A stretch of DNA of 64,000 bases from Wenzhouxiangella sp. (GTDB taxonomy: Bacteria; Pseudomonadota; Gammaproteobacteria; Xanthomonadales; Wenzhouxiangellaceae). Position 1 is the first letter of the stretch; every line of letters begins with the position of its first letter. Below are positions 20,750-55,211 of the stretch, piece after piece. The position numbers and the translations under genes are program-made. The stretch lies in NCBI GenBank assembly GCA_007134485.1, contig SLKT01000042.1, positions 47,065-111,064 on the forward strand, given 5' to 3'. Below the pieces are notes generated by a model. It was not told the origin of the DNA. It was given only the letters and a program-made list of their open reading frames with translations, and did no database searches.

Positions 20750-21838
20750 TCAGATCAGATGACGTTGCGCGTAGGTCTCGCGCCAGTGATCGCCATCCTT
20801 GATGGCCACCTCGGTATCAAAGTAATGCAGCAGGCGGCGACGGTCTTCGGGCTTGTCCTTGATCGCCGATCCGATGATGAAATGGACCAGCTGGTCGATC
20901 GAGAGTTTGCCGTCGCTGTAATAGAAAGCATGAACGCTGAGCGCATGCGCAACACCAACTGCTTCGGCAGTGGACATGCTGGCTCCGGCCAGGCGGTCGG
21001 TACTGCGCCCATCCAGGGTCTGGCCGTTGCGCAGCTCGTGAAAGATCGTGACCAGGACCTCGAGAATGTCTCGACCGAGTTCGACCTTCAATCCCGAATG
21101 CTCATTGAGCTTGGCGACTTCGCGTTCGACCACCGCGATCTCGGCATCGAGTTCACGGATGGCCGGGATGATCTCGAAATTCATCCGGCGCTTGAGCGCC
21201 GCACTCATTCTGTTGACCCCTTCATCGACACTGTTGGAGGTGGCAATGACGTTGAAACCGGCCCGCGCATACAGCACGCCCTCTTTGCCGCTAAGTTCGG
21301 GAATGATGGCGACCCGGTCGGACAGGATGGACAACAGCGCATCCTGCAGTGGTTGCGGACATCGCGCAATTTCCTCGAAGCGCACCAGCTTGCCATCACG
21401 CATGCCGCGATAGATCGGACTGGGCACCAGGGCGTCGACCACCGGTCCCTTGTCCTTGAGAATCGCTTCGTTCCAGCTATACAGCAACTGACTGACCTGG
21501 CTGACCGCCCCACCCTGAACGGCCAGCGAGGAATCACCGGAAATGGCCGCGGCAATCAATTCCGACAGCCACGACTTGGCGGTGCCGGGCTCGCCCACAA
21601 GCAGGCAGCCCCGATCCGTCAGAAGGCCAATCACGATGCGGGTGATCACGCCCGGATCGGCCACGATCTTGGTTTGTATGCCCAGTTCCTCGTCGCCAAG
21701 TACGAATTTCTCCACCGCCAGTGGAGACAGGTTCCAGCCCGGGGGAACCGGATGGCTATCCCGTTTGGCAAGAATCTGAAGTTCCTTCTGGTAAAACAGC
21801 TCGGCGGGCTGGCGCTGCAGTGGCGTCGACTTAGCCAT
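20750..21838 (-). CDS. MoxR-type AAA+ ATPase
   Basis: Walker A VGEPGTAKSWLSELIAAAISG, VRFEEIARCPQPLQDALLSILSDR, VIATSNSVDEGVNRMSAALKRRM; start re-assigned to MAKSTPLQ. Confidence 0.85.
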   Translation of the reverse strand: MAKSTPLQRQPAELFYQKELQILAKRDSHPVPPGWNLSPLAVEKFVLGDEELGIQTKIVADPGVITRIVIGLLTDRGCLLVGEPGTAKSWLSELIAAAISGDSSLAVQGGAVSQVSQLLYSWNEAILKDKGPVVDALVPSPIYRGMRDGKLVRFEEIARCPQPLQDALLSILSDRVAIIPELSGKEGVLYARAGFNVIATSNSVDEGVNRMSAALKRRMNFEIIPAIRELDAEIAVVEREVAKLNEHSGLKVELGRDILEVLVTIFHELRNGQTLDGRSTDRLAGASMSTAEAVGVAHALSVHAFYYSDGKLSIDQLVHFIIGSAIKDKPEDRRRLLHYFDTEVAIKDGDHWRETYAQRHLI

Positions 21839-24155: not shown

Positions 24156-24172
24156 GCAGGGGCACGAGCAAC

Positions 24173-24706
24173 ATGAAATACTGGATTTTTGCTTTTTTCG
24201 GAATCTTTCTGTCGGGTCTGCTTGTGGCCGACGAACATCCACGCGCGAATGCCGAGCTGGTCGATACGGATGGCGAGATGATCGGAACAGCAGAGCTGGT
24301 GCAGGGGCCGTCGGGCACGCTGATTCGAATCACACTCGAAGGCTTGCCCCCCGGCCCCAAGGCCATACACATTCATGGCACCGGCGACTGCGATGACCAT
24401 TGCGACGGCTTCCAGGCTTCGGGCGGTCACCTGAACCCGGATGATCGCCCCCACGGGCTGCTCAATCCGGATGGCCCCGATGCCGGTGACCTGCCCAATT
24501 TTCATGTCCATGAGAACGGTTACGCCTGGGCCGAGTTCTACACCACTCTGGCGAGTCTTGACGGCAGCTTCGGCGCCAGGATTCTCGACGATGACGGCGC
24601 CGCCCTGGTCATCCACGAAAATCCCGATGACCACAGCAGCCAACCGATCGGCGGCGCCGGCGCCCGGCTGGCCTGCGGGGTTATCCGTCTGAGCGAGGCG
24701 GAATGA
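24173..24706 (+). CDS. sodC: Cu/Zn superoxide dismutase, exported
   Basis: Signal peptide; IHIHGTGDC, GGHLNPDDRPHGLLNPDGPDAGDLPN, IHENPDDHSSQPIGGAGARLACGVI. Confidence 0.93.
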   Translation: MKYWIFAFFGIFLSGLLVADEHPRANAELVDTDGEMIGTAELVQGPSGTLIRITLEGLPPGPKAIHIHGTGDCDDHCDGFQASGGHLNPDDRPHGLLNPDGPDAGDLPNFHVHENGYAWAEFYTTLASLDGSFGARILDDDGAALVIHENPDDHSSQPIGGAGARLACGVIRLSEAE

Positions 24707-39893: not shown

Positions 39894-39961
39894 TTTTGCT
39901 GTATTGCGAATTGTTAATATGGTCAGGCTGTCTCTCGATTGATCAACGCAAGGATAGGCCC

Positions 39962-40297
39962 ATGAAAAAGTGTTCTCGTCGTAATCTTTTCAAACTCGCC
40001 GGCGCCGGCTCATTGGCGCTGTTGCTGCCCAGCCTGGTGCGGATCTCCGATGGCATGGCCGTCGCCGACGAGCGTCTGGACCCGGAAAGCGCGCAAGCCA
40101 AGGCGCTGGGATACGTTCACCACTATGATGACGTCGATCCTGATCGCTGGCCACGTTACGAGCCGGGCCAGATCTGCGCCAACTGTCAATTGGCCGAGGG
40201 CGACCTGGAAGCCGACTGGATGGGTTGCAGCATCTTTCCGGGCAAGAAGGTGGCCCATGACGGCTGGTGCAACGCCTGGGTCCAGCGCCAGGGCTGA
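39962..40297 (+). CDS. High-potential iron-sulfur protein (HiPIP), Tat-exported
   Basis: Twin-arginine SRRNLFKLAGAGSLALLL; CANCQ...GCSIFPGKKVAHDGWCNAW cysteine pattern. Confidence 0.92.
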   Translation: MKKCSRRNLFKLAGAGSLALLLPSLVRISDGMAVADERLDPESAQAKALGYVHHYDDVDPDRWPRYEPGQICANCQLAEGDLEADWMGCSIFPGKKVAHDGWCNAWVQRQG

Positions 40298-40320: not shown

Positions 40321-41391
40321 TCATCGCGCCCTGGCCAGTAACCACCAGGCAAAAAGCGCCAGTATCAAGGGGGGTCCCAATGCCACTGGAATGACTGGCC
40401 AACCCATCACCAGCCCGGTATAGCTGACCAGTTCAGTGACCATCTGAAAACCCAGTCCGAGCACCAGTGCGGCCACCAGCCGCACGCTCACTGCCCGACT
40501 CTTGAGTGGCACTGCGGCCGTGGCCATGGCAGCCAGAACCATTCCAAGGCAGATCAGCGGCAAAGCCAGGCGGCGCCATAACACCATCTCGAACTCGGCA
40601 ACATCCTGATCGCGCTGCTTGAGTCCTTCGACATACTGCCACAAGTCGGTCAACGGCAGACTGGCTGGAGGACTGAGCAACAACTCCAGCTGTCGGGCGG
40701 TGAGGAAGGCGTCCCAGACCATTTCATCCTTGCGGGTGAGAAAGTCCGCTCCACGCTGGTCGAACTGGCGTTGCTCGACAGCGACCAGCTGCCACGTGCC
40801 ATCCGGCTGAATCAGGGCCTGCTCGGCGCCAACATGACGAACCAGATCACCATCGGCGGTGAATTCATACAGATCGATCCCGGTCGGAATGCGTCCAAGG
40901 TGCAGGCTCTGCACATTGAGAAACTCGTTGTCCTGGCGAACCCAGAGTCCATGCCATGGATGCCACAGACCACTGTCTCCCAGGCTCGCGCCGATCAGCC
41001 GCTCCGGCCCTTGCTGCACCAGTGGCGTTGCCCATTGCAGGGCCGACAAGCCCAGCAAGGCAATCCCGAACCCGGGGATCAGCGCCAGAGAGGTGAGTTT
41101 CCAGACCGAAACGCCCGACGCGCGCATCACGGTAAGCTCACTACGAGCCTGAAAACCACTCATCACCGCTGCCGTGGCAAGGATCGTGATCACCGGCAAC
41201 AGGTCAATCAATCCTTCGGGAACGGCCTGAAAAGCCCGGATGACTATGACCAGGAGATCCATCGAGCCGCCGAATCCCTCCTCGAGCAGTTGCAGCAATT
41301 CCATAAGCCACAGCAAGGCGCCGATGGCGACCGTGGCGATCAGGTAGCCGTAAATCAGGCGAGCCACGATATGGGTGCCGAGAATTCTCAC
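40321..41391 (-). CDS. lptG: LPS export ABC transporter permease LptG
   Basis: YjgP/YjgQ family; GTG start VRILGTHIVARLIYGYL overlapping lptF stop. Confidence 0.9.
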   Translation of the reverse strand: MRILGTHIVARLIYGYLIATVAIGALLWLMELLQLLEEGFGGSMDLLVIVIRAFQAVPEGLIDLLPVITILATAAVMSGFQARSELTVMRASGVSVWKLTSLALIPGFGIALLGLSALQWATPLVQQGPERLIGASLGDSGLWHPWHGLWVRQDNEFLNVQSLHLGRIPTGIDLYEFTADGDLVRHVGAEQALIQPDGTWQLVAVEQRQFDQRGADFLTRKDEMVWDAFLTARQLELLLSPPASLPLTDLWQYVEGLKQRDQDVAEFEMVLWRRLALPLICLGMVLAAMATAAVPLKSRAVSVRLVAALVLGLGFQMVTELVSYTGLVMGWPVIPVALGPPLILALFAWWLLARAR

Positions 41392-42455
41392 AACGGTGCT
41401 CCGGGACCACGCTGGACCAGCAGATAACGGATCATGACCAACAGCAGGACAGCCATCGGAGCCAGGTAAGCCCCGGGCCAGAACGCCAGCGCGCCTTGCT
41501 CGAGCCAGTTGATCAGTACGCCGAGAAAGCTGTAATACAGCGAAGCCACCAGAGTGGCCGAAAGCACCCGTGACGACTGACCAAGACGGGGATTGATTCG
41601 GCTCAACGCCACCGCAGTCAGCCCGAGCACCAGCATGGACAGCGGACTGACCAGCCGCCACTGCAATTCGGCCACTTCGATCGGCTCGTTGCTGGCCAAC
41701 AGCTCCCTTGTGCTCATGGCGCGTCGCAATTGTTCGCGCTGTGGCGGCGGGCGACTCTGAAAGACCACCTCGAAACGGTCGAAAAGACCGATCAGATCGT
41801 CACCACCATCCGGTTCATTGCGATAGGTACGGACATCTCCGCTGAAAATCAGCCGTACCACGCCATCACCATCATCGGCCTGCTCCAGCCGGCGAGCTCG
41901 AAGCATGCCGCTGCCCTCTTCCAGACGCTGGTGCACCATGACCCGATCCAGGCCACCGGCGCTGCGCCCTTCCGCGTAGATCAACCATTGCTGATCGCCG
42001 ACCTGGAAGCGGCCCGGCTCGATGCGCTCCAGATCGAGCGCGGCGGCCATGCCGCGTTCCAGCTCATAAATGGTGCCATAAGCCCAGGGGCGAAAGACCA
42101 TGGACAAAGCCGCCACGATCAGCGCCAGAATGATCACCCATAGGCCAATCGCCCTGACGATGCGTCGCCGCCCTGCCCCGGCCGCGGCCAGGGCGATGAT
42201 TTCGTGACCGGCCTGCAAGCGACCCAGCCCGATAACGATCCCCAGCAGCACGGAGATCGGAACCAGTACATCCATGAACAGCCCCAGGCGCAAGCCGGCC
42301 ATGGCGCTCACCACCTCCATGGGCCAGCCTTCGACTGCGGCCCGGGCGAGCAGCTGGCTGGCGTAGAACACCAGCACCACGACCACCAGAAACACGAAAA
42401 CCCCGAAGACCGGGCGCAGGATCTCTCGTCCAAGGTAGCGTTCAATCAGGAGCAT
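41388..42455 (-). CDS. lptF: LPS export ABC transporter permease LptF
   Basis: MLLIERYLGREILRPVFGVFVFL, LLGIVIGLGRLQAGHEIIALAAAGAGRRRI. Confidence 0.92.
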   Translation of the reverse strand: MLLIERYLGREILRPVFGVFVFLVVVVLVFYASQLLARAAVEGWPMEVVSAMAGLRLGLFMDVLVPISVLLGIVIGLGRLQAGHEIIALAAAGAGRRRIVRAIGLWVIILALIVAALSMVFRPWAYGTIYELERGMAAALDLERIEPGRFQVGDQQWLIYAEGRSAGGLDRVMVHQRLEEGSGMLRARRLEQADDGDGVVRLIFSGDVRTYRNEPDGGDDLIGLFDRFEVVFQSRPPPQREQLRRAMSTRELLASNEPIEVAELQWRLVSPLSMLVLGLTAVALSRINPRLGQSSRVLSATLVASLYYSFLGVLINWLEQGALAFWPGAYLAPMAVLLLVMIRYLLVQRGPGAPL

Positions 42456-43249
42456 GACGAGGGCCTTTGTGAGATGACCGACTCGACAAGCTCGAGATCC
42501 TCCGTGGAATCGATGTCGACTGCACTGAGCGGATCCTCAAGCAGGCAGGCGCTGACCCGGGCGCCCGCCCGGCTGGACAGGGCGGCCAGGGCCTCGGACA
42601 GAGCGAGGCGTCCGGTCAGGTAGCGCCCCAGTAGCGACCATCCAAGCAGCGAAACGATTCGCCAGGGGCGCTTGCGCTGGCGCTCGATCTGTCGCCACAG
42701 TTCAACAACCGCATCACCTGCCGGATTTCGAAAGACAAACAGGTTGGTGCCACACACGTTGACATCACTGAATCGATAGCGGGTGCGCCGACTCCCGGGA
42801 AAGCGCTGCATGACGGTCTCATATTTCGCCAGGGCAACCGTCACGTCAGCGTCCGCTTCGGTGCCCAGCAACTGTTCCAGCCAGTCTGTTTTCAGCAACG
42901 GGTGATCGGCGGTCACCAGCAGGACGGGACGGCGGCCATCCAGCGCCTTCAGGCCAGCGGCAACACTCAGGCTGGGTGAGGTTTCCGGCCGGATGCGGAT
43001 CAATCGGTCATTGTCGATTGTAATGCGATCCAGAATTGCCCCATGTTCGGCGGTATCCGGCGCCAGCACCACCAGTCGATCAAGCAAGGGCCAGGCAGTC
43101 AGAGTTTCAAGGACCGTTTGCAGCATTGGTCGGCCGGCCACCTGAACGAGCGTCTTGCCGACCACGCCGGCGGTGCGCGCCAAAGGATCATCCGGGCCGC
43201 GATCGCCGGCCAGAACAATGACGTCAATCGGCGACGGCGCCTGCGTCAC
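42446..43249 (-). CDS. MobA-like NTP transferase family protein
   Basis: VIVLAGDRGPDDPLARTAGVVGKTLVQVAGRPMLQTVLE, LVTADHPLL; GTG start overlapping the upstream GNAT stop by 4 nt. Confidence 0.82.
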   Translation of the reverse strand: MTQAPSPIDVIVLAGDRGPDDPLARTAGVVGKTLVQVAGRPMLQTVLETLTAWPLLDRLVVLAPDTAEHGAILDRITIDNDRLIRIRPETSPSLSVAAGLKALDGRRPVLLVTADHPLLKTDWLEQLLGTEADADVTVALAKYETVMQRFPGSRRTRYRFSDVNVCGTNLFVFRNPAGDAVVELWRQIERQRKRPWRIVSLLGWSLLGRYLTGRLALSEALAALSSRAGARVSACLLEDPLSAVDIDSTEDLELVESVISQRPSSCS

Positions 43250-44400
43250 GACAACTCCTTCTCGAAAATACGGTATCGCTTGTACAGATTTCCGCCCATG
43301 GCCTCGATCAGCGAGTTCATGCCCTGGTTGGTCTCCAGTATCCACGAAAGTTCCACATTGGTGATGCCGTCGGCAAACAGCGCATGACGCACCTGATCGA
43401 TCATTCCGAAACTGATCGCCGCTCCGGTGGGGCCGCGCTGGAACCGGCGCCTGACTCCCATGAGCGGCACCCGCGCGGTGGTCGCCTTGCGCGTCTTGAT
43501 GCGCCACAGCAGTTTCGCCCATCCCACGGGCAACAGTGCGCCGTCGAGATCGGCAATCAATTCGTTGATATTGGGCAGGGCGACAATGAAGCCGGCCGCT
43601 TCGCCATCGATTTCCGCGATGCAGGTGTATCCCGGGCGAATGATCTGTCGCAACTCCTTTCCCATGTCGGAGAACTCGCTGCGGGTCAACGGCACGAAAC
43701 CCCAGTTCCGCGACCAGGCATCGTTGAATATGTCGCGCAACAATTCCAGTTCATTCGGATAATCGGAAAAATTCATCGGACGCAAGCGGATTCGCGCGCC
43801 CAGGCGCTGCAGCAATCGCTGCATGGCCAGGGGCGGCTCGAAATCCGGCGCCAATTCATAAGCGAGAAGATCCATGGCCTTCTCGAAACCCAGCCGCTCG
43901 ACCTGTTCAGCGTACCAGGGCGGTGCGTGGCCCATCATCACCATGGGGGGGCGATCACGACCTTCGATCAGCAGCCCGCAGGACTGATTGACGCCGAGAT
44001 CATAAGGCCCACGAATCAGCCCACAGCCTTGCTCGCGCAGCCATTCTTCAGCCGCGCTGAACAAACCCGCGAAAACCTGCGGACAGTTCAGCGCCTCCAG
44101 TTGACCAAAATAGCCGATTTTCCGTCCCGCTCGGGGCGCCTGCAGCGTATCCAGCTGGGCGCTGATGGTGCCCACAACCCGGCCGTTCCTGTTGGCAATG
44201 AACGGCATTGCCGATGCATGCTCGAACCACGGGTGTTTTGCTGACCACTGACGTTTACGCTCGAATCGCAACGGCTCGACCCAGCACGGATCATTCCCAT
44301 GAACCTGGCGCGGGAATCGCAGGAACTTGCTGAAATCCTTGCGGTCTTTTACAGCTTCGATGCTGAGCGCGCCGCTGCCACTGTCCTTCTGATGAGCCAT
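43246..44400 (-). CDS. Large GNAT-fold acyltransferase, candidate bacterial ceramide synthase (bCerS-like)
   Basis: VKDRKDFSKFLRFPRQVHGNDPCWVEPL, GYFGQLEALNCPQVFAGLFSAAEEWLREQGC, NVELSWILETNQGMNSLIEAMGG; ~384 aa, divergent from the spt cluster. Confidence 0.72.
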   Translation of the reverse strand: MAHQKDSGSGALSIEAVKDRKDFSKFLRFPRQVHGNDPCWVEPLRFERKRQWSAKHPWFEHASAMPFIANRNGRVVGTISAQLDTLQAPRAGRKIGYFGQLEALNCPQVFAGLFSAAEEWLREQGCGLIRGPYDLGVNQSCGLLIEGRDRPPMVMMGHAPPWYAEQVERLGFEKAMDLLAYELAPDFEPPLAMQRLLQRLGARIRLRPMNFSDYPNELELLRDIFNDAWSRNWGFVPLTRSEFSDMGKELRQIIRPGYTCIAEIDGEAAGFIVALPNINELIADLDGALLPVGWAKLLWRIKTRKATTARVPLMGVRRRFQRGPTGAAISFGMIDQVRHALFADGITNVELSWILETNQGMNSLIEAMGGNLYKRYRIFEKELS

Positions 44401-44461
44401 CCTTACGCGTTCTCCGAGCTCGCTCCAGACCTGTTCGTGCACCCCTCGGGCAGTATAATTC

Positions 44462-44477
44462 TGTGACCTGCATCACA
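44462..44477. promoter_or_regulatory. CRP/Clp-type palindrome TGTGA-CCTGCA-TCACA
   Basis: Perfect TGTGA-N6-TCACA in the divergent promoter region between the GNAT and acyl-AMP ligase genes. Confidence 0.65.
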
Positions 44478-44541
44478 CTTTTTGGTGCATGGGTCTGCAT
44501 CGAATTGGTATTTGAGTGTTTTCATCAGTTCAGTGGACGCT

Positions 44542-44547
44542 TATAAT
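44542..44547 (+). promoter_or_regulatory. Candidate -10 box TATAAT for the acyl-AMP ligase operon
   Basis: Consensus TATAAT ~75 nt upstream of the ATG at 44621; no good -35 at 17-nt spacing. Confidence 0.4.
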
Positions 44548-44620
44548 GACAGGTTATTGTGCGACAATAATAAGAACGCCCTCTTGGGACGCTCCAAAAA
44601 GAAGGGAACAAACGATTTTG

Positions 44621-46414
44621 ATGCAGAATCCGACTCCGACCAACAATTCGTTGCCCTTGAAGACGACCGGGTATCGCAGCCTGGCCGAAGCGCTTGATTA
44701 TGCCGCCAATGGGACAACGGGTTGCAACTTCTATAACGGCCGTGGAGAGCTGACCAGCGTCCTGTCCTATGCCGATCTTCGCAACCAGGCTCGCAACCTG
44801 GCTCGACGACTGCATGGTCTCGGGCTCCAGCGTGGCAGCACGGTGGCCATGGTGGCCGACACCCACCCGCACTTCCAGGTATTTTTCTTTGCCTGTCAAT
44901 ATGCCGGCCTGGTGCCCGTGCCACTGCCTGCTGCGGTTCACCTAGGCGGACGTGAAGCGTTCGTCTCGCACCTGCGCGCCATGCTGGTCGATTGCCGCGC
45001 CCAGGCCGCCTTTGCACCGGCCACCTTTTCCGGGTTCCTGGTCGATGCCGCCGAAGGCCTCGATCTGCATGCCGTCGGTACGCTGGACACCTTCATGGAG
45101 CTTGAACCGGCCGACGAATTGCCGGAGCCGCCCGAGCTTGATGATCTGGCCTATTTGCAATATACCTCCGGCAGCACGCGGTTCCCGCGTGGCACCATGA
45201 TTACCCAGCGGGCAGTGCTGAACAATCTGTCGGGCATTCTCCAGTACGGGGTCCAGATTCGCCGCGGCGATCGATTCATGTCATGGCTGCCCTACTACCA
45301 TGACATGGGGCTGGTCGGCTTGATCCTGGGACCGGTGGTCTCACAATTGTCGGTCGATTACCTCGGCACCCGCGAATTCGCAATGCGGCCCCGCCTGTGG
45401 CTGAAACTGATGTCGGAGAACCGTTCAACCATCTCGTTCAGCCCGCCCTTCGGCTATGCGCTGTGTGCCCGACGCCTGCGCGAGAGTGACCTGGATCGTT
45501 TCGACCTTTCGGCCTGGCGAGTCGCCGGCGTCGGCGCCGAGATGATTCGTCCGGCCTGGCTGCGGCAATTTGCCGACAACCTGAGTCCAGCCGGGTTTTC
45601 GCGATCAGCCTTTCTGCCGTGCTATGGCATGGCCGAATGTTCACTGGCGGTCAGTTTCGCCCCGCTTGGGCAGGGCCTTGAAGTCGACCGTCTCGACGCC
45701 AATCTGCTCGCGGCCGATCGCAAGGCACGCCTGGTGGGCCACGCCGACGCGGATACGCGGGTTACCGAGTTCGTCAATTGCGGTCGTCCCCTGCCGGAAT
45801 ACGAAGTCGAAATCCGGGATGAGTCCGGCGATCTGGTCGAGGAACGTCAGTGCGGGCGCATCTATCTGCGCGGCCCGAGCGTCATGAAGGGCTACGCCAA
45901 CAACCGCGAGGCGAGCAAGGCCGCACTGAGTGACGACGGCTGGCTCAACACCGGCGATATCGGTTACCGGGCCGGCGACTCTCTTTTCATTACCGGTCGG
46001 GCCAAGGATCTGTTGATCATCAATGGCCGCAACATCTGGCCCCAGGACCTGGAATTCGTCGCCGAGCAGCAACCGGAGGTGCGCCCCGAGGATGCTTCCG
46101 CGTTTTCGATTCCCGGAGAGGATGGCACGGAAGTCGCGGTCCTGGTCGTGCAATGCCGCGAGCGTGACGCCTTTCGTCAGGCCAGCCTGGTCGAATGCCT
46201 CAAGCAGCGCATCCAGTCCGAATTCGGTATTGCCTGCCTGATCGAGCTTGTGCCGCCGCATACACTGCCACGCACGTCCTCCGGCAAGCTCTCGCGCAGC
46301 GGCGCCCGGCTCGACTTTCTCAAGCGCAATGGTCTCGAGGAACGTGGGATCCTGCCGCGTGAGCTGGTCGATCGCACCCCCCATACCGAAGCGACTGACA
46401 ATCCCGCTGCCTGA
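44621..46414 (+). CDS. Fatty acyl-AMP ligase / acyl-ACP synthetase-like
   Basis: LAYLQYTSGSTRFPRGTMITQRAVLNNL, SWLPYYHDMGLVGLILGP, ITGRAKDLLIINGRNIWPQDLE; FAAL-type. Start MQNPTPTNN. Confidence 0.88.
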   Translation: MQNPTPTNNSLPLKTTGYRSLAEALDYAANGTTGCNFYNGRGELTSVLSYADLRNQARNLARRLHGLGLQRGSTVAMVADTHPHFQVFFFACQYAGLVPVPLPAAVHLGGREAFVSHLRAMLVDCRAQAAFAPATFSGFLVDAAEGLDLHAVGTLDTFMELEPADELPEPPELDDLAYLQYTSGSTRFPRGTMITQRAVLNNLSGILQYGVQIRRGDRFMSWLPYYHDMGLVGLILGPVVSQLSVDYLGTREFAMRPRLWLKLMSENRSTISFSPPFGYALCARRLRESDLDRFDLSAWRVAGVGAEMIRPAWLRQFADNLSPAGFSRSAFLPCYGMAECSLAVSFAPLGQGLEVDRLDANLLAADRKARLVGHADADTRVTEFVNCGRPLPEYEVEIRDESGDLVEERQCGRIYLRGPSVMKGYANNREASKAALSDDGWLNTGDIGYRAGDSLFITGRAKDLLIINGRNIWPQDLEFVAEQQPEVRPEDASAFSIPGEDGTEVAVLVVQCRERDAFRQASLVECLKQRIQSEFGIACLIELVPPHTLPRTSSGKLSRSGARLDFLKRNGLEERGILPRELVDRTPHTEATDNPAA

Positions 46415-46429
46415 TCGCCTGGCCGGGGC

Positions 46430-47356
46430 ATGACCGACACCGCCCTGACCGGCGCCACCGGCTTTGTCGGACGTCGGCTGTTGGCCATGCTGCTGGCAGA
46501 AAACCACTCGGTCCGGGCACTGGCCCGTGAAGGCCGCACCCTGCCCGAGCACGAACACCTCAGCCGAATCACCGGATCGCTGAGCGATGTCAACGCTCTG
46601 AAATCCCTGGTCAGCGGCGCCGACGTGGTGATTCATCTGGCTGGGGCAACCAGTGGCTTCGACTACCGGGACCTGGCCCGGACCAACGTGGCCGGCTGTC
46701 AGCGGCTGCTCCAGGCCATGGCGACGAGCGCACCCGCTGCGCGACTGATCCATGTATCCAGCCTGGCCGCCCGTGAACCGCAACTGTCCGACTATGCCGC
46801 CAGCAAACACGCCGGAGAGGAGGTCGTCCATGCCGCGGCCAACAACTGGCTGATCATTCGTCCGCCGGCCGTGTACGGTCCCGAGGATCCGGCGCTGGCG
46901 CCGTTGTGGCGCCTGCTGGCGCGCGGCTGGTTGCCACGAATCGGGTCGGACCAGGCACGCTTCTCTCTGTTGCATGTCGATGATCTGTGTTCAGCGCTGA
47001 TTCGTTCCGCAGAAGGTGACTGGCCAGAGAATACGCTCATCGAGTTGCATGATGGACGTCCGGATGGCTACAGCTGGAATGAAATCGCCGCGATTGCCGC
47101 CGACATTCGCGGCCGGCGAGTCAGAGCCATCAAGGTCCCTGAAGGCGTGCTGAAAGCCATCGGAGCCACCCACCTGGCCCTTGCCCGCATGCGCCGAACC
47201 CGGCCGCCTGTTCTGGTGCCGAACAAGGTTTCCGAACTGGTTCATCCGGACTGGGTCTGTGATAATACCCGTCTTCCCGGTTGCCCGGACTGGCGACCCA
47301 TTCGAACACTCGAAAACAGCCTGACGACCTTGCCTGGATGGAAAAAATTCCAATGA
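46430..47356 (+). CDS. NAD-dependent epimerase/dehydratase (candidate ceramide reductase CerR-like)
   Basis: ALTGATGFVGRRLLAMLL, VIHLAGATSGFDYRDLARTNVAGCQRLLQA, YAASKHAGEEVV; sits between acyl ligase and ACP/spt. Confidence 0.82.
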   Translation: MTDTALTGATGFVGRRLLAMLLAENHSVRALAREGRTLPEHEHLSRITGSLSDVNALKSLVSGADVVIHLAGATSGFDYRDLARTNVAGCQRLLQAMATSAPAARLIHVSSLAAREPQLSDYAASKHAGEEVVHAAANNWLIIRPPAVYGPEDPALAPLWRLLARGWLPRIGSDQARFSLLHVDDLCSALIRSAEGDWPENTLIELHDGRPDGYSWNEIAAIAADIRGRRVRAIKVPEGVLKAIGATHLALARMRRTRPPVLVPNKVSELVHPDWVCDNTRLPGCPDWRPIRTLENSLTTLPGWKKFQ

Positions 47357-47613
47357 CCAACGAATTGCGCCAAGAAATCGACCAAGCCATCAGCCGGGCG
47401 CTGGCCACTGCACTACCGGAAATGAAGGACATTGACCGAGATGCCGCCCTGACCGGTGATATCGGCCTGGATTCGGTACAGATCATGAACCTGGTCATGG
47501 AGATCGAAGATGATCTCGATGTGTCCGTGCCGGTCGATATCCTGTCCGAAGTTCAGACCCTCAATCAACTGGCCGAGCGCCTTGAATCCCTGGTCGGCGA
47601 ATCACGCTCATGA
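47353..47613 (+). CDS. Dedicated acyl carrier protein
   Basis: LTGDIGLDSVQIMNLVMEIEDDLDVSVPVDILSEVQTLNQLAERL. Confidence 0.9.
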   Translation: MTNELRQEIDQAISRALATALPEMKDIDRDAALTGDIGLDSVQIMNLVMEIEDDLDVSVPVDILSEVQTLNQLAERLESLVGESRS

Positions 47614-48794
47614 GTCTGTTCGACAAGTTTCACAAGCTGGCCGAGGCACGCTCCGGGCTCGGCCAGGATGGACCGGCCCCGATCGCCACGCCCATCGAGC
47701 GGGTCGATTCGGCTACACGCGGCTGGATTGGCGGACGTGAAGTCATTCTGGCCGGGACCAACAATTATCTCGGCCTGACCTTTCATCCTGATGTCATCGC
47801 CGCCGGCACCCGGGCGCTGACTGAGCTGGGCTCGGGCACCACCGGTTCACGCATGGCCAATGGCAGCTATGGCGCTCACCAGGCGCTGGAGGCCGAACTG
47901 GCGGCCGCATTCGGCTGGCCCTCGGCGATTGTATTTTCAACCGGTTACCAGGCCAATCTCGGCGCCCTGTCGACCCTGGTGGGCCAGGGTGAATACCTGC
48001 TGCTCGATTCCGACAGCCACGCCAGCATCTATGACGGCGCTCGACTGAGCAATGCCCAGACCATACGCTTTCGCCACAACGACCCGGAAAACCTGGATCG
48101 GCGCCTGTCCCGGCTGGGCGATGATGCCGGCCGCGCCCTGGTGGTGGTCGAGGGGTTGTATTCCATGCTCGGCGACCAGCCGCCGCTGGCCGAGTTTGTC
48201 GAGGTAAAGAACAACCACAAGGCCTGGCTGATGGTCGATGAGGCCCATTCGTTCGGTGTGTTCGGTGAGCGCGGACTCGGCCTGGCCGAACAGGCCGGAC
48301 TGTTGGATCAAGTCGATTTCATCGTCGGCACCTTCTCCAAGAGCCTGGCCGGAATCGGCGGCTTTTGCGTCAGTCCGCATACCGACCTGGAATTGCTGCG
48401 CCTGGCCAGTCGCCCGTACATTTTCACCGCCTCACCCTCTCCCACAGTCATCGCCTCGACCCGCAAGGCCCTGGAGCTGCTGGTCAACGGCCAGGAACTC
48501 AGGCTATCACTACAAAGGAATATCAATCGTTTATACGAAGAAGTGAAAGCGATGGGTTATGAGCTGGGTAGCCCCGATCCCGGACCGGTCATGGCCATAA
48601 TCCTGCCTGACCGCGCCACGGCCCTGGCCCACTGGAAAGGCCTGCTGAATGCCGGCATCTATGCCAACCTGATGATCCCGCCGGCCACCCCTGCCGGATT
48701 GAACCTGCTGAGAATTTCCCTGAGTGCAGCGCATACCGACGCCGATATTGACCAGATCGTCAATGCCTTGCGCAAACTTCGTGACGGCTTGTAG
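47610..48794 (+). CDS. spt: Serine palmitoyltransferase-like alpha-oxoamine synthase
   Basis: AOS family: TNNYLGLTFHPDVIAAGTRALTELGSGTTGSRMANGSYGAHQALEAELAAAFG, VDEAHSFGVFGERGLG, GTFSKSLAGIGGF; sphingolipid assignment from gene context. Confidence 0.82.
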   Translation: MSLFDKFHKLAEARSGLGQDGPAPIATPIERVDSATRGWIGGREVILAGTNNYLGLTFHPDVIAAGTRALTELGSGTTGSRMANGSYGAHQALEAELAAAFGWPSAIVFSTGYQANLGALSTLVGQGEYLLLDSDSHASIYDGARLSNAQTIRFRHNDPENLDRRLSRLGDDAGRALVVVEGLYSMLGDQPPLAEFVEVKNNHKAWLMVDEAHSFGVFGERGLGLAEQAGLLDQVDFIVGTFSKSLAGIGGFCVSPHTDLELLRLASRPYIFTASPSPTVIASTRKALELLVNGQELRLSLQRNINRLYEEVKAMGYELGSPDPGPVMAIILPDRATALAHWKGLLNAGIYANLMIPPATPAGLNLLRISLSAAHTDADIDQIVNALRKLRDGL

Positions 48795-49207: not shown

Positions 49208-50704
49208 TTACCAGGACTCGACAATGGTCTTGCGCTCCAGCGGGTCCATCGCAGAAATCCTTTCGTCCTGGTAGTAGGAATCGCTGCGAATCGACTTGGT
49301 CGAGATTTCGGCAAAGATACAGCCCTTGCGAGTGCGGAAGGCATGCAACTGGTCACGCTCGACCAGCAGTTTGTCACCCGGCTCGAGATGGATGATATCG
49401 CCATCCAGATCGACCTCCAGATCACCCCACAGTACGTGGAAGGTTTCTTCCTTGGCCTTGTGTTTGTGATGGGGATGTTTCTGACCGGGCAGCATGATCA
49501 GGAACTTGTTGCAATACTCACGGTTGATTGAATTGATCAGCACACAACCGGTCTCGCGAAAACGGTCGATCCCGTAGTGATGCGAGATCTCGATACTGAT
49601 GTCATCGCCCAGGGCGATACCGGCCTCGTAGAGCTGACCCTTGGCATCATGCAGGATACCGCGAATCTGGGTGTACTTGTCCTGCTGGGCATGCTCGAAA
49701 ATGGCCTCATCGGCCGGATAGTCGCGCGAGGCGACAAAGCTGGCGCGATACTGGCCGAACTGCCCTGAGGTCAACTGGCCGTCCTGGCAGGGCATCGCGA
49801 AGTAGACATCTTCGCGCTTGATGTCCTCGCCCTTCTTGATCGGCCGCTTAGCGAATACGCCGCGCTGCAATTGCAGCAATGATTCGTATTCCTTCTGGCT
49901 GACGTGTTTGTCATCGTCGCTGCCCATGATGGCCCGCGCACGGTTGGCGGCATCCAGCCACTGACCGGCCTGCTCCGGGTTCATGGAATACTTGTTCAGG
50001 GCAATCTCATCGGTCTCGACGCCGAAGTGGCGCTCCAGCAACTTCGCGCCCTGGGCCACTGCAACCATGACCACATCGGTATCGTCCGGCGCCTCGTGCC
50101 CGGAGTAGCCGATGGTGACATACGGGTAGCGCCGGATCATCTTGGCCATGAAATTCATGGCATGCTGTTCCTGCGGGGTCGGATACAACGACACGCAGTG
50201 CATGATGGCCAGCTCAGACACCCGCTTGCTCAGGAAGGTGACCAGGTTGTCGATCTCGTAGATCGACAGCCCCCCGGTCGAGGCGATCACCGGCTTGTCG
50301 GCCGCGGCAATGGCCTCGATCAAGGGCCAGTCGGTAGCCGAGCAACTGGCAACCTTGATGATTTCCACGCCCAGCGACTGGCACAGTCCCACCGAGGGCT
50401 CGTCGAACGGCGTGGCCACCGAGACCAGCCCGGCCTTGCGGGTCGCATCAACCAGTTGACGGAACTGGCCATCATCCAGACGCGTGCTCTCGAAGCGCGG
50501 GATATGCATGATGTCATCGCGACCCTTGGCGGTCGGATGAATGAAGCTGTCAAGCTCGCGAAACTGCAGCTTGACGGCGGCCCGAACACGATGCTCGCGC
50601 GCCAGTCTGGCGGCGGCATCAATGATCTTCATCCCATGGGCGACATCGCCCTGGTGATTGTTGGCCATTTCGAAGATATGGAGATTCTCGAAAATCCTGC
50701 TCAT
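49208..50704 (-). CDS. neuB: NeuB-family N-acylneuraminate synthase with C-terminal cupin domain
   Basis: IFEMANNHQGDVAHGMKIIDAA, STGGLSIYEIDNLV, SAF-like region, then PGQKHPHHKHKAKEETFHVLWGDLEVDLDGDIIHLEPGD cupin. Confidence 0.87.
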   Translation of the reverse strand: MSRIFENLHIFEMANNHQGDVAHGMKIIDAAARLAREHRVRAAVKLQFRELDSFIHPTAKGRDDIMHIPRFESTRLDDGQFRQLVDATRKAGLVSVATPFDEPSVGLCQSLGVEIIKVASCSATDWPLIEAIAAADKPVIASTGGLSIYEIDNLVTFLSKRVSELAIMHCVSLYPTPQEQHAMNFMAKMIRRYPYVTIGYSGHEAPDDTDVVMVAVAQGAKLLERHFGVETDEIALNKYSMNPEQAGQWLDAANRARAIMGSDDDKHVSQKEYESLLQLQRGVFAKRPIKKGEDIKREDVYFAMPCQDGQLTSGQFGQYRASFVASRDYPADEAIFEHAQQDKYTQIRGILHDAKGQLYEAGIALGDDISIEISHHYGIDRFRETGCVLINSINREYCNKFLIMLPGQKHPHHKHKAKEETFHVLWGDLEVDLDGDIIHLEPGDKLLVERDQLHAFRTRKGCIFAEISTKSIRSDSYYQDERISAMDPLERKTIVESW

Positions 50705-51795
50705 GAAACACCTTTGTTCGAATTCGTTTCGGTTGGGTCGGCCAGGCCACAAAGGGCCAGCGCCTGGGGCAGCGAGACCAGTCGGTCATCGACGTAGTAG
50801 TCGGCCGGGGGCTTGCCGAAGCACAGCTCATGATAGCGCACTCCCCAGCGCTCCATCTGCTCGGCGGTCACCTCGGTCCAGTCCTTGCCGGTGCCGGATC
50901 CACGCGCGGTGAACAGCACGATATGGCAACCGGCATCAAACAGGGCATTGACCCTGGAAATATTGTCCGGGATAGGTCCGGCGCTGGCATAGTCCAGCTC
51001 GGGCACGGCCTCGGCCAGCACGCCGTCGATATCGACGACCAGGCGACGCGGCTTGATCGCAGCATCGTTGCGACCATCCGGTGAGGATGAACCATTGGCA
51101 ATCATGGCGGCTTCGACCTTTTCGACATCGGCCGGGGTATCGATACTGACCTGCGGTTCCTCGATGACCACGGCACCCGCCCGCTCGCCCATCAGCGACT
51201 GATGTTCAAGCAAGGTCTTACGGCGCAATGCATAAGCCACGCCATTACGATGATAGACCGGCTCGAGCTGCTGGCGAGCAATGATGCTACTGCCACGCGG
51301 ATCGAAATAATCCATGCGGCCATTCTCGCCCACCGTGAGTTGCTTGAGCGGGTGGGATTTCAGGTCGGTCGGACTGACGGTCCAGACCGCATCGAGATCC
51401 TCGTTGATCAGCTTGTTGACGGTCTGGCGGACATGATCGACCCGTCGCAACGGCGAGGTCGGCTGCAGCATGACCACAATGTCGTAATGCTGACCATCGT
51501 CATCTTCGGTGGCTTTCAGGGCGTGGGCCAGCACATCGACATCGCCAATGCGATCGCCGGACAACTCGGTCGGGCGCATGAACGGTGCTTCCAGCCCATG
51601 CTCCATGGCGGTCTGTCGAATCACCAAGTGATCGGTGGAAACCACGGCCCTGTCCACCCAATCCAGCGCGCGTACCAATTCGGCGGTATGAACCAGCAGC
51701 GGTTTGCCGGCCACCGGCAACAGGTTCTTCATCGGGATGCCCTTGCTGCCACCACGCGCCGGCACGACCACCAGAATGCGTTGTCCGGAAATCAT
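50701..51795 (-). CDS. neuA: Acylneuraminate cytidylyltransferase fused to C-terminal HAD-like phosphatase domain
   Basis: ILVVVPARGGSKGIPMKNLLPVAGKPLL; C-term LVVDIDGVLAEA, VLFTARGSGTGKDW, GKPPADYYVDDRL. Confidence 0.87.
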   Translation of the reverse strand: MISGQRILVVVPARGGSKGIPMKNLLPVAGKPLLVHTAELVRALDWVDRAVVSTDHLVIRQTAMEHGLEAPFMRPTELSGDRIGDVDVLAHALKATEDDDGQHYDIVVMLQPTSPLRRVDHVRQTVNKLINEDLDAVWTVSPTDLKSHPLKQLTVGENGRMDYFDPRGSSIIARQQLEPVYHRNGVAYALRRKTLLEHQSLMGERAGAVVIEEPQVSIDTPADVEKVEAAMIANGSSSPDGRNDAAIKPRRLVVDIDGVLAEAVPELDYASAGPIPDNISRVNALFDAGCHIVLFTARGSGTGKDWTEVTAEQMERWGVRYHELCFGKPPADYYVDDRLVSLPQALALCGLADPTETNSNKGVS

Positions 51796-51801
51796 GGCGT
51801 C

Positions 51802-52866
51802 TCAAGCCCGAACCTTCACCAGCCGGCCGTCGCGGGCCGACTTCAAAGCGGCAACAATCACCTGCATAGTCTCCAGTCCCGCGCTCATGTCCAGCGGCGA
51901 GGCCATCGAATGATCTTCAAGCATGTGCCCGACATGTTCGATCTCGCCACGAAAATCATCGGGACGGGTCTTGGCGACCCGCTCTTCCAGTTCAAGTCCG
52001 TCCTGGCGAATCAGCCGAACCAGGTCGTGACCGGGATCGATATTGACCTGCCATTCCAGGTAACCCTCGGTACCCTCCAGGCGCAACCACTTCTGTGCCG
52101 GCTGGGTGACGACATCCTGAACAATGGTGCCGACCAGGCCACGATCAGTCCTGACTGAAAGCTGGGCAATGCGATCGTAAGCCGCGCCATCGGCCTCGAC
52201 CTCGTCAAGCATGGCCATGACCTCGCTGATCCGGCCCATGCCGGCCAGTTCGGCAAAATACTGCCAGATATTGATCGCATGGCTGTGCTCGCCCAGTGCG
52301 CCACCACCGCGGCTGGTAAAGCCCAGGTAGGTATCTGCCGGCCCCGCCAGCCAGGGGTGGGCGGCGAAAATGCCGCCCCAGTGTTCGCGGGTCTTGGCCC
52401 TCAAGGTGGTGATTTCACCGATTGAATGCTCGGCCAGCCATTGGGCGGCGATGCGGGTATGGCCGGTCAGGCGATGGTTGTATCCAACCAGCACTCGAAC
52501 ATTGTGCTCGGCGGCCAGCTCCACCAGTTCGGTGCACGGTTCCAGGTCCGGCGGGCACAGCGGCTTTTCGATCAATATCACGCGTGGCTTGCTGTTGCGA
52601 ATCTCGGCCAACGCCAGGGGAATGTGACTGTCCGGCGGCGTGCCGATAATGACCAGGTCAAACTGCTCGCTCGCGGTGTCTTCGGGGCGGCGCAGTCGAA
52701 TGCCCTCATCCCACTGCCCATAGCGGGTCGGGTAGATGTCATCGCGGGTGCGCTGCAACGCGGCCTCGTCGATATCGCACAGGGTCACATCCCAGCCCTG
52801 CTCACGCGCGGCATGGGCCAGATGATTGCCGATCGAACCGGCGCCCAGAATCTTGACTTTGGTCAT
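51802..52866 (-). CDS. Gfo/Idh/MocA family oxidoreductase
   Basis: VKILGAGSIGNHLAHAAREQGWDVTLCDID, VILIEKPLCPPDLEPCTELVELAAEHNVRVLVGYNHRL. Confidence 0.9.
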   Translation of the reverse strand: MTKVKILGAGSIGNHLAHAAREQGWDVTLCDIDEAALQRTRDDIYPTRYGQWDEGIRLRRPEDTASEQFDLVIIGTPPDSHIPLALAEIRNSKPRVILIEKPLCPPDLEPCTELVELAAEHNVRVLVGYNHRLTGHTRIAAQWLAEHSIGEITTLRAKTREHWGGIFAAHPWLAGPADTYLGFTSRGGGALGEHSHAINIWQYFAELAGMGRISEVMAMLDEVEADGAAYDRIAQLSVRTDRGLVGTIVQDVVTQPAQKWLRLEGTEGYLEWQVNIDPGHDLVRLIRQDGLELEERVAKTRPDDFRGEIEHVGHMLEDHSMASPLDMSAGLETMQVIVAALKSARDGRLVKVRA

Positions 52867-52958
52867 GAGTTCACTTGGTATTTGAAGACAGTGGCCAAGG
52901 GCATGGCAGCGTTAACCGCGCAATTCTACCAATTGCCCTAGCCCGGCAGGCGTTCAAT

Positions 52959-54314
52959 TCAGTCACCCGGCGAGATTTCGAAAACATTGCGCTCGAGCTC
53001 GCGCACTTCAAATGCCTGCTGCATGCCGATACACCCGGCCAGGGTTTCAAGCCGCTGGCGGACCTCAGGCAGGCTGGTATCGGGAAACATGTGAGCCAGG
53101 TAGGGTCGATAGTTGGCCGTGCCCGGCAGGCGATGCTCGATGCGGCGCAGCTGTCGCCTGAATGCAAGTGCCGCCCCGGCAAATCGCGGTCGGTTGCCCG
53201 TCGGCGGCTCGGGATTTTCCAGCAGTGGCCGGATTGCATCGAGAATGTATTCGCTGTCGAGGCGCTCACGCCCGGTTCCGGCCATGGCGCGAGTCATGAT
53301 CTGCTGCGCCCCCTCGCGGGCCTGACGGGCAAACACTGCGTCTGGGTCGTCCCGGCAGTCCCTGGCGCCCTGTTCCAATTCATCCAGGTTTTCGCAGGAA
53401 AGGCTGATGTCATTGGGCAAGGGATGATCGAAGCGCTGTGAGCGAACCGGACGGTACGCCAGCGCCGGCCGCGCCACCTGAAAGGCTTCGACGGCCGTGG
53501 TACAGCCATTGTGAATCAGCCCGTCACTGGCCAGCAGCCAGGCCACCACATTGCCGCGCGAATCGATGCGGACATTATCAAGACCATTGAGCAGGTCCTC
53601 CCAGGTTTCACGACGCTCACTGGGGTGCGGACGCACCACGAATTGCACCTCCGGCAAGGTGCGCGCCAGGGCCGGGATGGCTTCGGTAAAGGCTTTGAAC
53701 AATTCGTACTTGTGCGCGGCAAAGCCGCCGCGCGGATCGTCCGGGCGCTGCTCGCGCAGCCATTTCAGGTGACGATTCTGACGCGGCTGGACATGGTTGA
53801 CCCGCGAAAAATTGGTGTTGATCAGCACGAAACGACCGTACTGTGATCGAATTCGGGCGACTTCATCCTCGAACAATGCCTGTAGCGGCTTTTTCAGCAA
53901 GTCGGCACGCGGGTTGCCACACACGGCAATCGGACCGCCGGCATGCTCCGGGTGCTCACGCCAGGCATCGGCGTTGTCTTCGCCCCAGGCAATCAGCAAT
54001 TCCGGCTCGTTGAGCGTCGGCCCATCGACCTTGGTGCGCCAGTAGACCTCGCGCGAAGCCCAGACCAGCCCTTCCTCGTCCCACAAGGCGACCCGATGAC
54101 CACACGACCGCGCCAGGGCCAGGTTATGGCGACTGCGCGCGGTCACGCTCTTGCCGATATAGACACCGGCCGGATAACGTGACAACGACAAGTCGATGGT
54201 CTTCTTGGCGCCGACGATGGCGCAAATGCCGCGTCCGGCCGCGACCAGACCCAGCAGCAACTTGGCGTCGAACTCGCGAACGCGCGTTTCACACGGCAGA
54301 ATCAGGGTGCGCAT
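52959..54314 (-). CDS. Surface carbohydrate biosynthesis protein (glycosyl/glycerophosphotransferase-like)
   Basis: MRTLILPCETRVREFDAKLLLGLVAAGRG, GNPRADLL, RPHPSERRETWEDLL, GLIHNGCTTAVEAF. Confidence 0.75.
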   Translation of the reverse strand: MRTLILPCETRVREFDAKLLLGLVAAGRGICAIVGAKKTIDLSLSRYPAGVYIGKSVTARSRHNLALARSCGHRVALWDEEGLVWASREVYWRTKVDGPTLNEPELLIAWGEDNADAWREHPEHAGGPIAVCGNPRADLLKKPLQALFEDEVARIRSQYGRFVLINTNFSRVNHVQPRQNRHLKWLREQRPDDPRGGFAAHKYELFKAFTEAIPALARTLPEVQFVVRPHPSERRETWEDLLNGLDNVRIDSRGNVVAWLLASDGLIHNGCTTAVEAFQVARPALAYRPVRSQRFDHPLPNDISLSCENLDELEQGARDCRDDPDAVFARQAREGAQQIMTRAMAGTGRERLDSEYILDAIRPLLENPEPPTGNRPRFAGAALAFRRQLRRIEHRLPGTANYRPYLAHMFPDTSLPEVRQRLETLAGCIGMQQAFEVRELERNVFEISPGD

Positions 54315-55211
54315 TCAGTCCGCCTGGAAGCGCTCGGCCAGCTCCGGGTTCAGGCGCTCGGCGACAAAGCGATCAATGCGTTCGATCTCGCCATCATCGA
54401 AGTAATCTCGATAGCCGCCAACCTTGCCCCGTCGCACCTTGTAGGAATCCGGGTCCTCGACATTCGCGGCCTTGAGACGACTGTTCCTGAAATAGTTGTC
54501 GCGTTCCTTGCGCTTGAGAGATTCGAACGAGGCAAACTCCACGGCCTCGGCAATTTCGTCGGTACTGAAATCCTGCTCGAGGAATTCGAGCAATCGTGCC
54601 ATTTCGGCTTCCGGCTCGGCCCTGAGGGTTTCGTAGAAGAGTCGATAGACGCGATCCCAGCCGTTCAATTCCTCGTGCCAATGATTGAGATAGTCACAAA
54701 TCGCCGGCAGCCCCAGCGGGGATTGCATGACGAACTCGAACATCGAGCCCGCCTGGTCAACCGCGTACATCTCGCGCTTGTAGGCGCTCGCCCTGCGGGT
54801 CGACTGGAAATACTCGGAGACCGCCACATCACGCGGGTCGCGCAGCAGCAACACCACCGGCATAGCGCACAGTTTCGAGCCGTGGCGCGGATGGCGGGCC
54901 AGGCGATCAAGGTAATGACCATGGGTCATGGCGTACACCGGAATCGCCGAGTTCTGACTCTTGAAGTTGTCATACTCCAGCAACTGGTTCTCGGCCAGCC
55001 CATGGCGCCTCTGGTAGAGCCGGGAGAGCATGGCGCGCAACCAGGTCCGACCACTCTTGGCCCGCGACAACACCAGAATGTCGGCCGCCAGTACGCGGCG
55101 ATTGTCAAGCCCGGCGCGCAGGCGATGACGCGCCCGAACGCGGCGCTCACGCGGCAATGGCGCGGTCAGCGCCCAGATTCCGGCGCGGTAGAGGCGGAGA
55201 CGGTCGATCAT
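54315..55211 (-). CDS. Sulfotransferase domain protein
   Basis: PAPS 5'-loop-like LSRAKSGRTWLRAMLSRL and 3'-loop LLLRDPRDVAVSEYFQSTR. Confidence 0.84.
   Translation of the reverse strand: MIDRLRLYRAGIWALTAPLPRERRVRARHRLRAGLDNRRVLAADILVLSRAKSGRTWLRAMLSRLYQRRHGLAENQLLEYDNFKSQNSAIPVYAMTHGHYLDRLARHPRHGSKLCAMPVVLLLRDPRDVAVSEYFQSTRRASAYKREMYAVDQAGSMFEFVMQSPLGLPAICDYLNHWHEELNGWDRVYRLFYETLRAEPEAEMARLLEFLEQDFSTDEIAEAVEFASFESLKRKERDNYFRNSRLKAANVEDPDSYKVRRGKVGGYRDYFDDGEIERIDRFVAERLNPELAERFQAD

Follow-up and report, generated by a model that had tools for sequence, protein, structure and literature searches.

The 64,000-nucleotide stretch of Wenzhouxiangella sp. DNA analysed here (assembly GCA_007134485.1, contig SLKT01000042.1, positions 47,065 to 111,064 of the forward strand), referred to as the window and giving the coordinates used below, contains a cluster of eight genes predicted to function in the synthesis and export of ceramide, the lipid core of sphingolipids. 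A first-pass annotation of this DNA had delimited the locus as 42446-48794; the genes it named do belong to the cluster, but it left out two directly adjoining LptF/LptG genes (40321-42455). All eight reading frames are open, and the locus is composed as follows:

40321 to 41391, minus strand: lptG2, second-copy LptG-type permease
41388 to 42455, minus strand: lptF2, second-copy LptF-type permease
42446 to 43249, minus strand: CC_1153-type nucleotidyltransferase (NTase; NTP_transf_3, PF12804), 267 aa, probable activator of a headgroup precursor
43246 to 44400, minus strand: cerS (bCerS/YghO family), tandem-GNAT N-acyltransferase, 384 aa (PF00583)
44401 to 44620: divergent intergenic region cerS/aasR, with a sigma-70-like -35/-10 pair toward aasR
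44621 to 46414, plus strand: aasR, acyl-acyl carrier protein (acyl-ACP) synthetase of the fatty acyl-AMP ligase (FAAL) family, 597 aa (NF006624)
46430 to 47356, plus strand: cerR, ketoreductase of the extended short-chain dehydrogenase/reductase (SDR), NAD epimerase family (PF01370)
47353 to 47613, plus strand: acpR, dedicated ACP, 86 aa (PF00550)
47610 to 48794, plus strand: spt, serine palmitoyltransferase (SPT), 394 aa, assigned by NF047599, PDB entry 2x8u and a tree

Four-base overlaps (cerS/NTase, lptF2/lptG2, cerR/acpR and acpR/spt) and the 15-bp gap between aasR and cerR indicate that these genes form two divergent operons, cerS-NTase-lptF2-lptG2 on the minus strand (44400 to 40321) and aasR-cerR-acpR-spt on the plus strand (44621-48794), with a start-to-start spacing of 220 bp. 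The NTase and lptF2 genes overlap by 10 bp, and the NTase start is best read as the GTG at 43249, which overlaps the cerS stop codon as GTGA. The promoter-like element of the intergenic region, TTTTCA-17-TATAAT (44519-44547, plus strand), is a weak prediction (one site versus 0.3 expected in the promoter scan).

Spt matches PF00155 and scores 586 bits with the serine palmitoyltransferase equivalog NF047599 (cut-off 500), while staying below the cut-offs of the other equivalogs of alpha-oxoamine synthases (AOS), namely bioF (329 bits, cut-off 426), KBL (263 bits, cut-off 493), ALAS and autoinducer synthase. Residues H137, D210, H213 and K244 are found at the expected motifs of the pyridoxal phosphate site, and among solved structures the best matches are SPTs from bacteria (2x8u, 3e-124). 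A maximum-likelihood tree places the protein within the Spt clade (support 100/100), away from BioF/KBL, in the company of a Wenzhouxiangella metagenome-assembled genome (MAG; 82-83% identity) and a second gammaproteobacterial MAG, and the second AOS match of the same genome (L002, BioF/KBL-type) is located outside this clade.

The other ceramide enzymes fit the same pathway. AcpR (PF00550, 46.6 bits) carries its attachment site, Ser41, in the motif GLDSVQ, scores below every housekeeping ACP cut-off and is encoded directly upstream of spt. AasR reaches 770 bits with the FAAL profile NF006624 (cut-off 600) and is 80-85% identical to its counterparts in the nearest relatives. CerR (PF01370, 88 bits) starts with the Rossmann glycine motif, so that a classical signal peptide would not fit in front of it, and has YxxxK at 122; CerR of Caulobacter crescentus has been reported as periplasmic (PMC11087976). 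CerS aligns over its full length with E. coli YghO (45% identity over 373 aa), which has been paired with C. crescentus CC_1154, the N-acyltransferase needed for dihydroceramide (PMC9386255), and its AlphaFold2 model (pLDDT 91.8) best matches tandem GNAT enzymes in the PDB, e.g., 2wpw and 7q3a. Identities to the E. coli S10 set are 54% for Spt, 48% for AasR, 39% for CerR and 44% over 52 aa for AcpR, and the E. coli five-protein ceramide set has been aligned with that of C. crescentus (PMC9386255). All five proteins, Spt, AcpR, AasR, CerR and CerS, thus show the sequence features of the Rhodobacteria ceramide locus. The AOS enzyme, dedicated ACP, NAD-epimerase, FAAL-like acyl-AMP ligase and divergent GNAT of about 384 aa called in the first-pass annotation are borne out by these domain matches, as is its proposal of a C. 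crescentus-type ceramide pathway, since the order aasR-cerR-acpR-spt with a divergent cerS is that of the published Rhodobacteria set (PMC11324152, PMC9386255). Its two reservations, that the AOS protein might fall in the KBL or BioF clade and that the GNAT might not align with bCerS, are answered by the equivalog scores and tree and by the YghO alignment, respectively.

Conservation of the gene set was assessed in 95 spt loci, many with incomplete flanks, so that the counts of neighbours are lower bounds. cerS is divergent from aasR within 2.5 kb in at least 42 of these loci, the NTase gene directly follows cerS in at least 37, and LptF/G homologues are present near spt in at least 43. The association of these genes is not due to chance, and the same arrangement occurs in Pseudomonadota, Nitrospirota and records titled delta-proteobacteria. 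Spt clusters of proteobacterial type in Nitrospirota/Nitrospirales and delta-proteobacteria records (L108, L112, L116, L124, L130, L139, L145, L147 and L153) suggest a wide horizontal spread.

Among the known systems, the C. crescentus cluster (CC_1168-CC_1152; PMC11324152) has aasR, cerR, acpR, spt, cerS, the CC_1153-type NTase, lptF2 and lptG2 in common with the window. CpgB- and CpgC-like genes are present in this genome too, but elsewhere than in the window. In contrast to C. crescentus, neither CpgA (CDP-alcohol transferase) nor CpgD (CDP-glycerate synthase) was found here, cerS is the first gene of a divergent operon that also includes the NTase gene and lptFG2, and genes for nonulosonic acid (NulO) synthesis and a sulfotransferase adjoin. 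The E. coli yghO/spt cluster (E. coli S10; E. coli B in PMC9386255) likewise has cerS (yghO) divergent from aasR-cerR-acpR-spt with lptG/lptF-like genes next, although these lie 3' of spt, and the E. coli stretch contains YtfJ, a flippase-like protein and yghS/T, with none of this NTase type seen. Nucleotide matches (blastn) to the window spt occur in 4064 of 5426 complete E. coli genomes, the top five being annotated as spt, and adjoin yghO and lptFG-like genes (L099). Pseudomonas luteola and Azotobacter vinelandii clusters (PMC11324152; represented here by P. asuensis, L173) show the same order, cerS-NTase...lptF2-lptG2 divergent from aasR-cerR-acpR-spt, plus an ABC (ATP-binding cassette) protein; L173 differs in that lptG2 is followed by CpgA, and CpgD is located between the NTase and lptF2 genes. 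Zymomonas mobilis also lacks CC_1159 (CpgA) and is predicted to make ceramide phosphoglycerate (CPG) but not CPG2, yet its genes are scattered over many regions and a moderate CC_1152 counterpart has been reported (PMC11324152). The locus is of a standard ceramide synthesis and export type, new for the Wenzhouxiangella group although the gene set itself is already known, and this group joins the bacteria with a full ceramide set and a dedicated LptFG-type exporter.

LptF2 scores 241.9 bits with TIGR04407, above the canonical cut-off of 230, and LptG2 226.9 bits with TIGR04408, under the cut-off of 240. Another, better-scoring lptFG pair of canonical type, about 25% identical, is located on contig C113, and the window genes are therefore second copies. 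LptF2/LptG2 have been described in the C. crescentus sphingolipid cluster, where a sphingolipid cargo is unproven (PMC11324152). By analogy, and judging from its position, the window pair likely constitutes a dedicated sphingolipid exporter.

In C. crescentus, formation of CPG2 requires the kinase CpgB, CpgC, CpgA, CpgD and CC_1153. Phenylobacterium and other alphaproteobacterial loci keep the published order, i.e., spt, a PolB-type gene, a DAGK gene and a CDP-alcohol transferase gene, then cerS and an NTase gene, which identifies the four non-ceramide gene families as CC_1161 (PolB-type), CC_1160 (DAGK), CC_1159 (CDP-alcohol transferase) and CC_1153 (NTase). By this mapping the window NTase is of the CC_1153 type; homologues directly follow cerS in the Phenylobacterium and Henriciella loci, the former being 37% identical, with orthology taken from gene order. 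Its suggested role as a headgroup activator calls for refinement: the CC_1153 type is required for CPG2 in C. crescentus, but the protein is not CpgD, the characterised headgroup activator. Its profile matches 2dpw (1e-38), while CpgD-type proteins match 1jyk/4jd0, and other genomes carry the two types next to each other. The CpgD-type proteins resemble phosphocholine and inositol-phosphate cytidylyltransferases, as published for CpgD, and their gene sits between the NTase gene and lptF2 in many relatives. The many NTP transferases matched by the NTase profile include, with a weak score, 3-phospho-D-glycerate guanylyltransferase (7p97, 4.9e-5), which is no more than a hint.

The absence of CpgA and CpgD was examined by profile searches that included the five nearest relatives and six control genomes, all six positive. 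The CpgA profile reached 30 bits in this genome and at most 32 across it and the five relatives, versus 433-587 in the six controls, and the best CpgD match was 53 bits over 80 residues in this genome, and at most 54 with the relatives included, versus 303-427 in the controls. An earlier CpgA query with a single alphaproteobacterial protein, run without a positive control and then redone as this profile, had given no match. Because both profiles give only background here and in the five relatives and strong scores in the controls, the end steps of CPG2 synthesis, which add the second phosphoglycerate, are by this measure missing in the group.

Further candidate genes are found on contig C84 of the same genome, in an operon (L096:1769-11536, minus strand) encoding a fatty acid desaturase/hydroxylase, a DAGK-type kinase, a Tam41-like protein and an MsbA-like ABC protein, as well as an LpxL-like acyltransferase, a glycosyltransferase-like/ELM1 fusion (757 aa), a 2-oxoglutarate oxygenase and a 332-aa protein of no assigned family. 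The first four genes (desaturase, CpgB, CpgC and ABC) are contiguous with the ceramide cluster in the close relative L104. The CpgB-like DAGK_cat protein (PF00781, 51 bits), whose gene adjoins the CpgC-like gene as in the alphaproteobacterial loci, is a putative ceramide kinase. In Phenylobacterium and further alphaproteobacterial loci, a gene located between spt and cpgB codes for a homologue of the CpgC-like PolB-type protein. Six of 14 members of this family match Tam41_Mmp37 (PF09139; best 1.3e-8) and no other Pfam family, the family profile matches the mitochondrial phosphatidate cytidylyltransferase 6ig2 (2.4e-5), and the top fold matches of the CpgC model are the Tam41 structures 7ecd and 6ig2/6ig4. 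The mechanism of CpgC was described in 2026 as unidentified (PMC13228409), and no connection between CpgC and Tam41 was found in the literature searched. From profile and fold likeness, there is about an even chance that CpgC is a CTP:ceramide-1-phosphate cytidylyltransferase forming CDP-ceramide, and the likeness offers CpgC a directly testable reaction, CTP + ceramide-1-phosphate to CDP-ceramide. Genomes that keep CpgB, CpgC and the CC_1153-type enzyme without CpgA and CpgD separate the steps of the headgroup pathway: CC_1153 would accordingly have a role apart from CpgD, and another headgroup would exist.

We are highly confident, from the sequence evidence, that the locus makes ceramide and exports it to the outer membrane, with further headgroup steps relying on genes elsewhere in the genome. 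We observed directly the family membership, the order of the genes and the absence of CpgA and CpgD, and infer from these the catalytic steps, the export and the final headgroup. In the proposed pathway, AasR would activate a fatty acid with ATP and load AcpR, and Spt would condense acyl-AcpR with serine to 3-ketosphinganine. CerS would then N-acylate the base and CerR reduce the ketone, in an order that is disputed in the literature, so that ceramide would form either in the cytoplasm or on the inner membrane. The CpgB-like lipid kinase would phosphorylate ceramide, the Tam41-like CpgC-like nucleotidyltransferase could activate the product to CDP-ceramide, both being encoded on another contig, and the CC_1153-type NTase of the window probably prepares a headgroup precursor. 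Flipping of the lipid would fall to the MsbA-like ABC protein, and its transfer to the outer membrane to LptF2/LptG2, presumably working with the shared LptB ATPase. Judging from the gene content, the final headgroup should not be the CPG2 of C. crescentus, and since the enzymes for the second headgroup unit are absent and genes for sialic-acid-type sugars adjoin, the end product may be a lipid unlike those described to date.

Several points weigh against this pathway. Ceramide production here is a prediction from the genes, and the link to C. crescentus runs via E. coli YghO, the Phenylobacterium/Henriciella loci and the gene order given in the literature. Since LptF2 clears the cut-off for canonical LptF as well, its cargo is read from its position, and the likeness of CpgC to Tam41 is at the level of fold (TM about 0.5) and weak profile matches. 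In addition, the assembly is fragmented (206 contigs, 94.6% complete) and single absences could be gaps, which five relatives with the same absences make less likely.

Downstream of spt, the window contains a second group of genes:

49208 to 54314, minus strand: NulO cassette, 3' of spt; possible headgroup genes
49208 to 50752, minus strand: NeuB with a C-terminal cupin
50701 to 51795, minus strand: PseF-like CMP transferase with an extra C-terminal domain
51802 to 52866, minus strand: Gfo/Idh protein
52959 to 54314, minus strand: TIGR04396 glycosyltransferase-like protein
54315 to 55211, minus strand: sulfotransferase (PF00685)

The sulfotransferase is possibly part of the NulO cassette, as the gene for its 79% identical homologue in L104 is flanked by the NulO genes on one side and the desaturase-cpgB-cpgC-ABC genes on the other. 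It is followed by a PlsC-type acyltransferase (PF01553; 55240-56040, minus strand) that could belong to the same lipid cassette. The same cassette is found 3' of spt in L100 and L104 and rearranged in L112 and L120, where aasR-cerR-acpR-spt-ELM1-TIGR04396-Gfo-NeuB-NeuA follow each other at short intervals on a single strand. Of the 95 loci, 14 have NulO or TIGR04396 genes no more than 10 kb from spt, always on its 3' side; they come from Wenzhouxiangella-type and delta-type lineages, from Nitrospirota (with three cassette types) and from two further lineages of Gammaproteobacteria. The cassette types include NeuB-cupin/Gfo/PseF-like here and in Nitrospirota, and NeuA-NeuB-NeuC in other Nitrospirota and gammaproteobacteria. 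In 23 spt genomes, four of 15 NeuB copies (three lineages) are within 10 kb of spt, with about 0.1 expected by simple arithmetic. ELM1-domain proteins (Mito_fiss_Elm1, GT-B-like) are repeatedly encoded beside spt, often directly 3' and on the same strand (L111, L112, L118, L120, L124, L145, L051, L052 and others), and are candidate sphingolipid glycosyltransferases.

The placement of NulO cassettes 3' of spt hints at a sialic-acid-like sphingolipid, for which the TIGR04396 and ELM1-type proteins would be the candidate glycosyltransferases; no such NulO sphingolipid was found described in the literature searched. The NulO genes probably serve lipopolysaccharide (LPS), capsule or flagellin instead, their adjacency to spt reflecting envelope genes that share islands. 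NulO commonly decorates O-antigen and flagellin, and glycan clusters (G512, G227) as well as a flagellar region (G160) contain the same NeuB-cupin type with no spt close by, so that NulO genes were rejected as an exclusive sphingolipid marker. What speaks for a lipid role is that cassettes of at least two types recur 3' of spt in several lineages, that some are on the same strand as spt with matches 51-84 bp apart, and that the L104 cassette is situated between the ceramide genes and the CpgB/CpgC genes. It is nonetheless doubtful that the group makes NulO-bearing, ganglioside-like sphingolipids, with the region 3' of spt acting as a variable headgroup cassette filled differently in each lineage and with CpgA and CpgD lost in the Wenzhouxiangella group.

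For the ceramide locus itself, it is unlikely that the LptF/LptG pair serves ordinary LPS export and adjoins the ceramide genes by chance. The LptF score above the canonical equivalog cut-off would fit this role, but the C113 pair scores better, and lptFG homologues recur both near spt and in the C. crescentus cluster. Trios of FAAL, ACP and AOS also occur in natural product clusters, and ceramide alone leaves the NTase and NulO genes unexplained, so that the FAAL and ACP might feed the AOS enzyme of a pathway to another alpha-oxoamine lipid or natural product, e.g., an N-acyl amino ketone or a signalling molecule. This is highly improbable given that Spt passes only the SPT equivalog and that the CerS/YghO family, CerR and lptFG2 accompany spt across many genomes. 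A reading of Spt as KBL or BioF, within an operon unrelated to ceramide, could draw on the shared AOS fold and the bioF score but is refuted on sequence grounds by its scores below both cut-offs and by the separate grouping of L002.

A recent foreign origin of the locus was also considered and rejected, its GC content (59-63%) matching that of the remaining window with no sign of such an origin, and viral contigs queried with CerS gave zero matches and thus no phage link. Elsewhere in the window, a gene for a high-potential iron-sulfur protein (HiPIP; 39896-40297, plus strand) adjoins lptG2, and a single 803-aa reading frame (21831-24242, minus strand), in which a PCMT methyltransferase domain precedes MshEN and T2SSE ATPase domains, represents either a fusion or a missed gene boundary.

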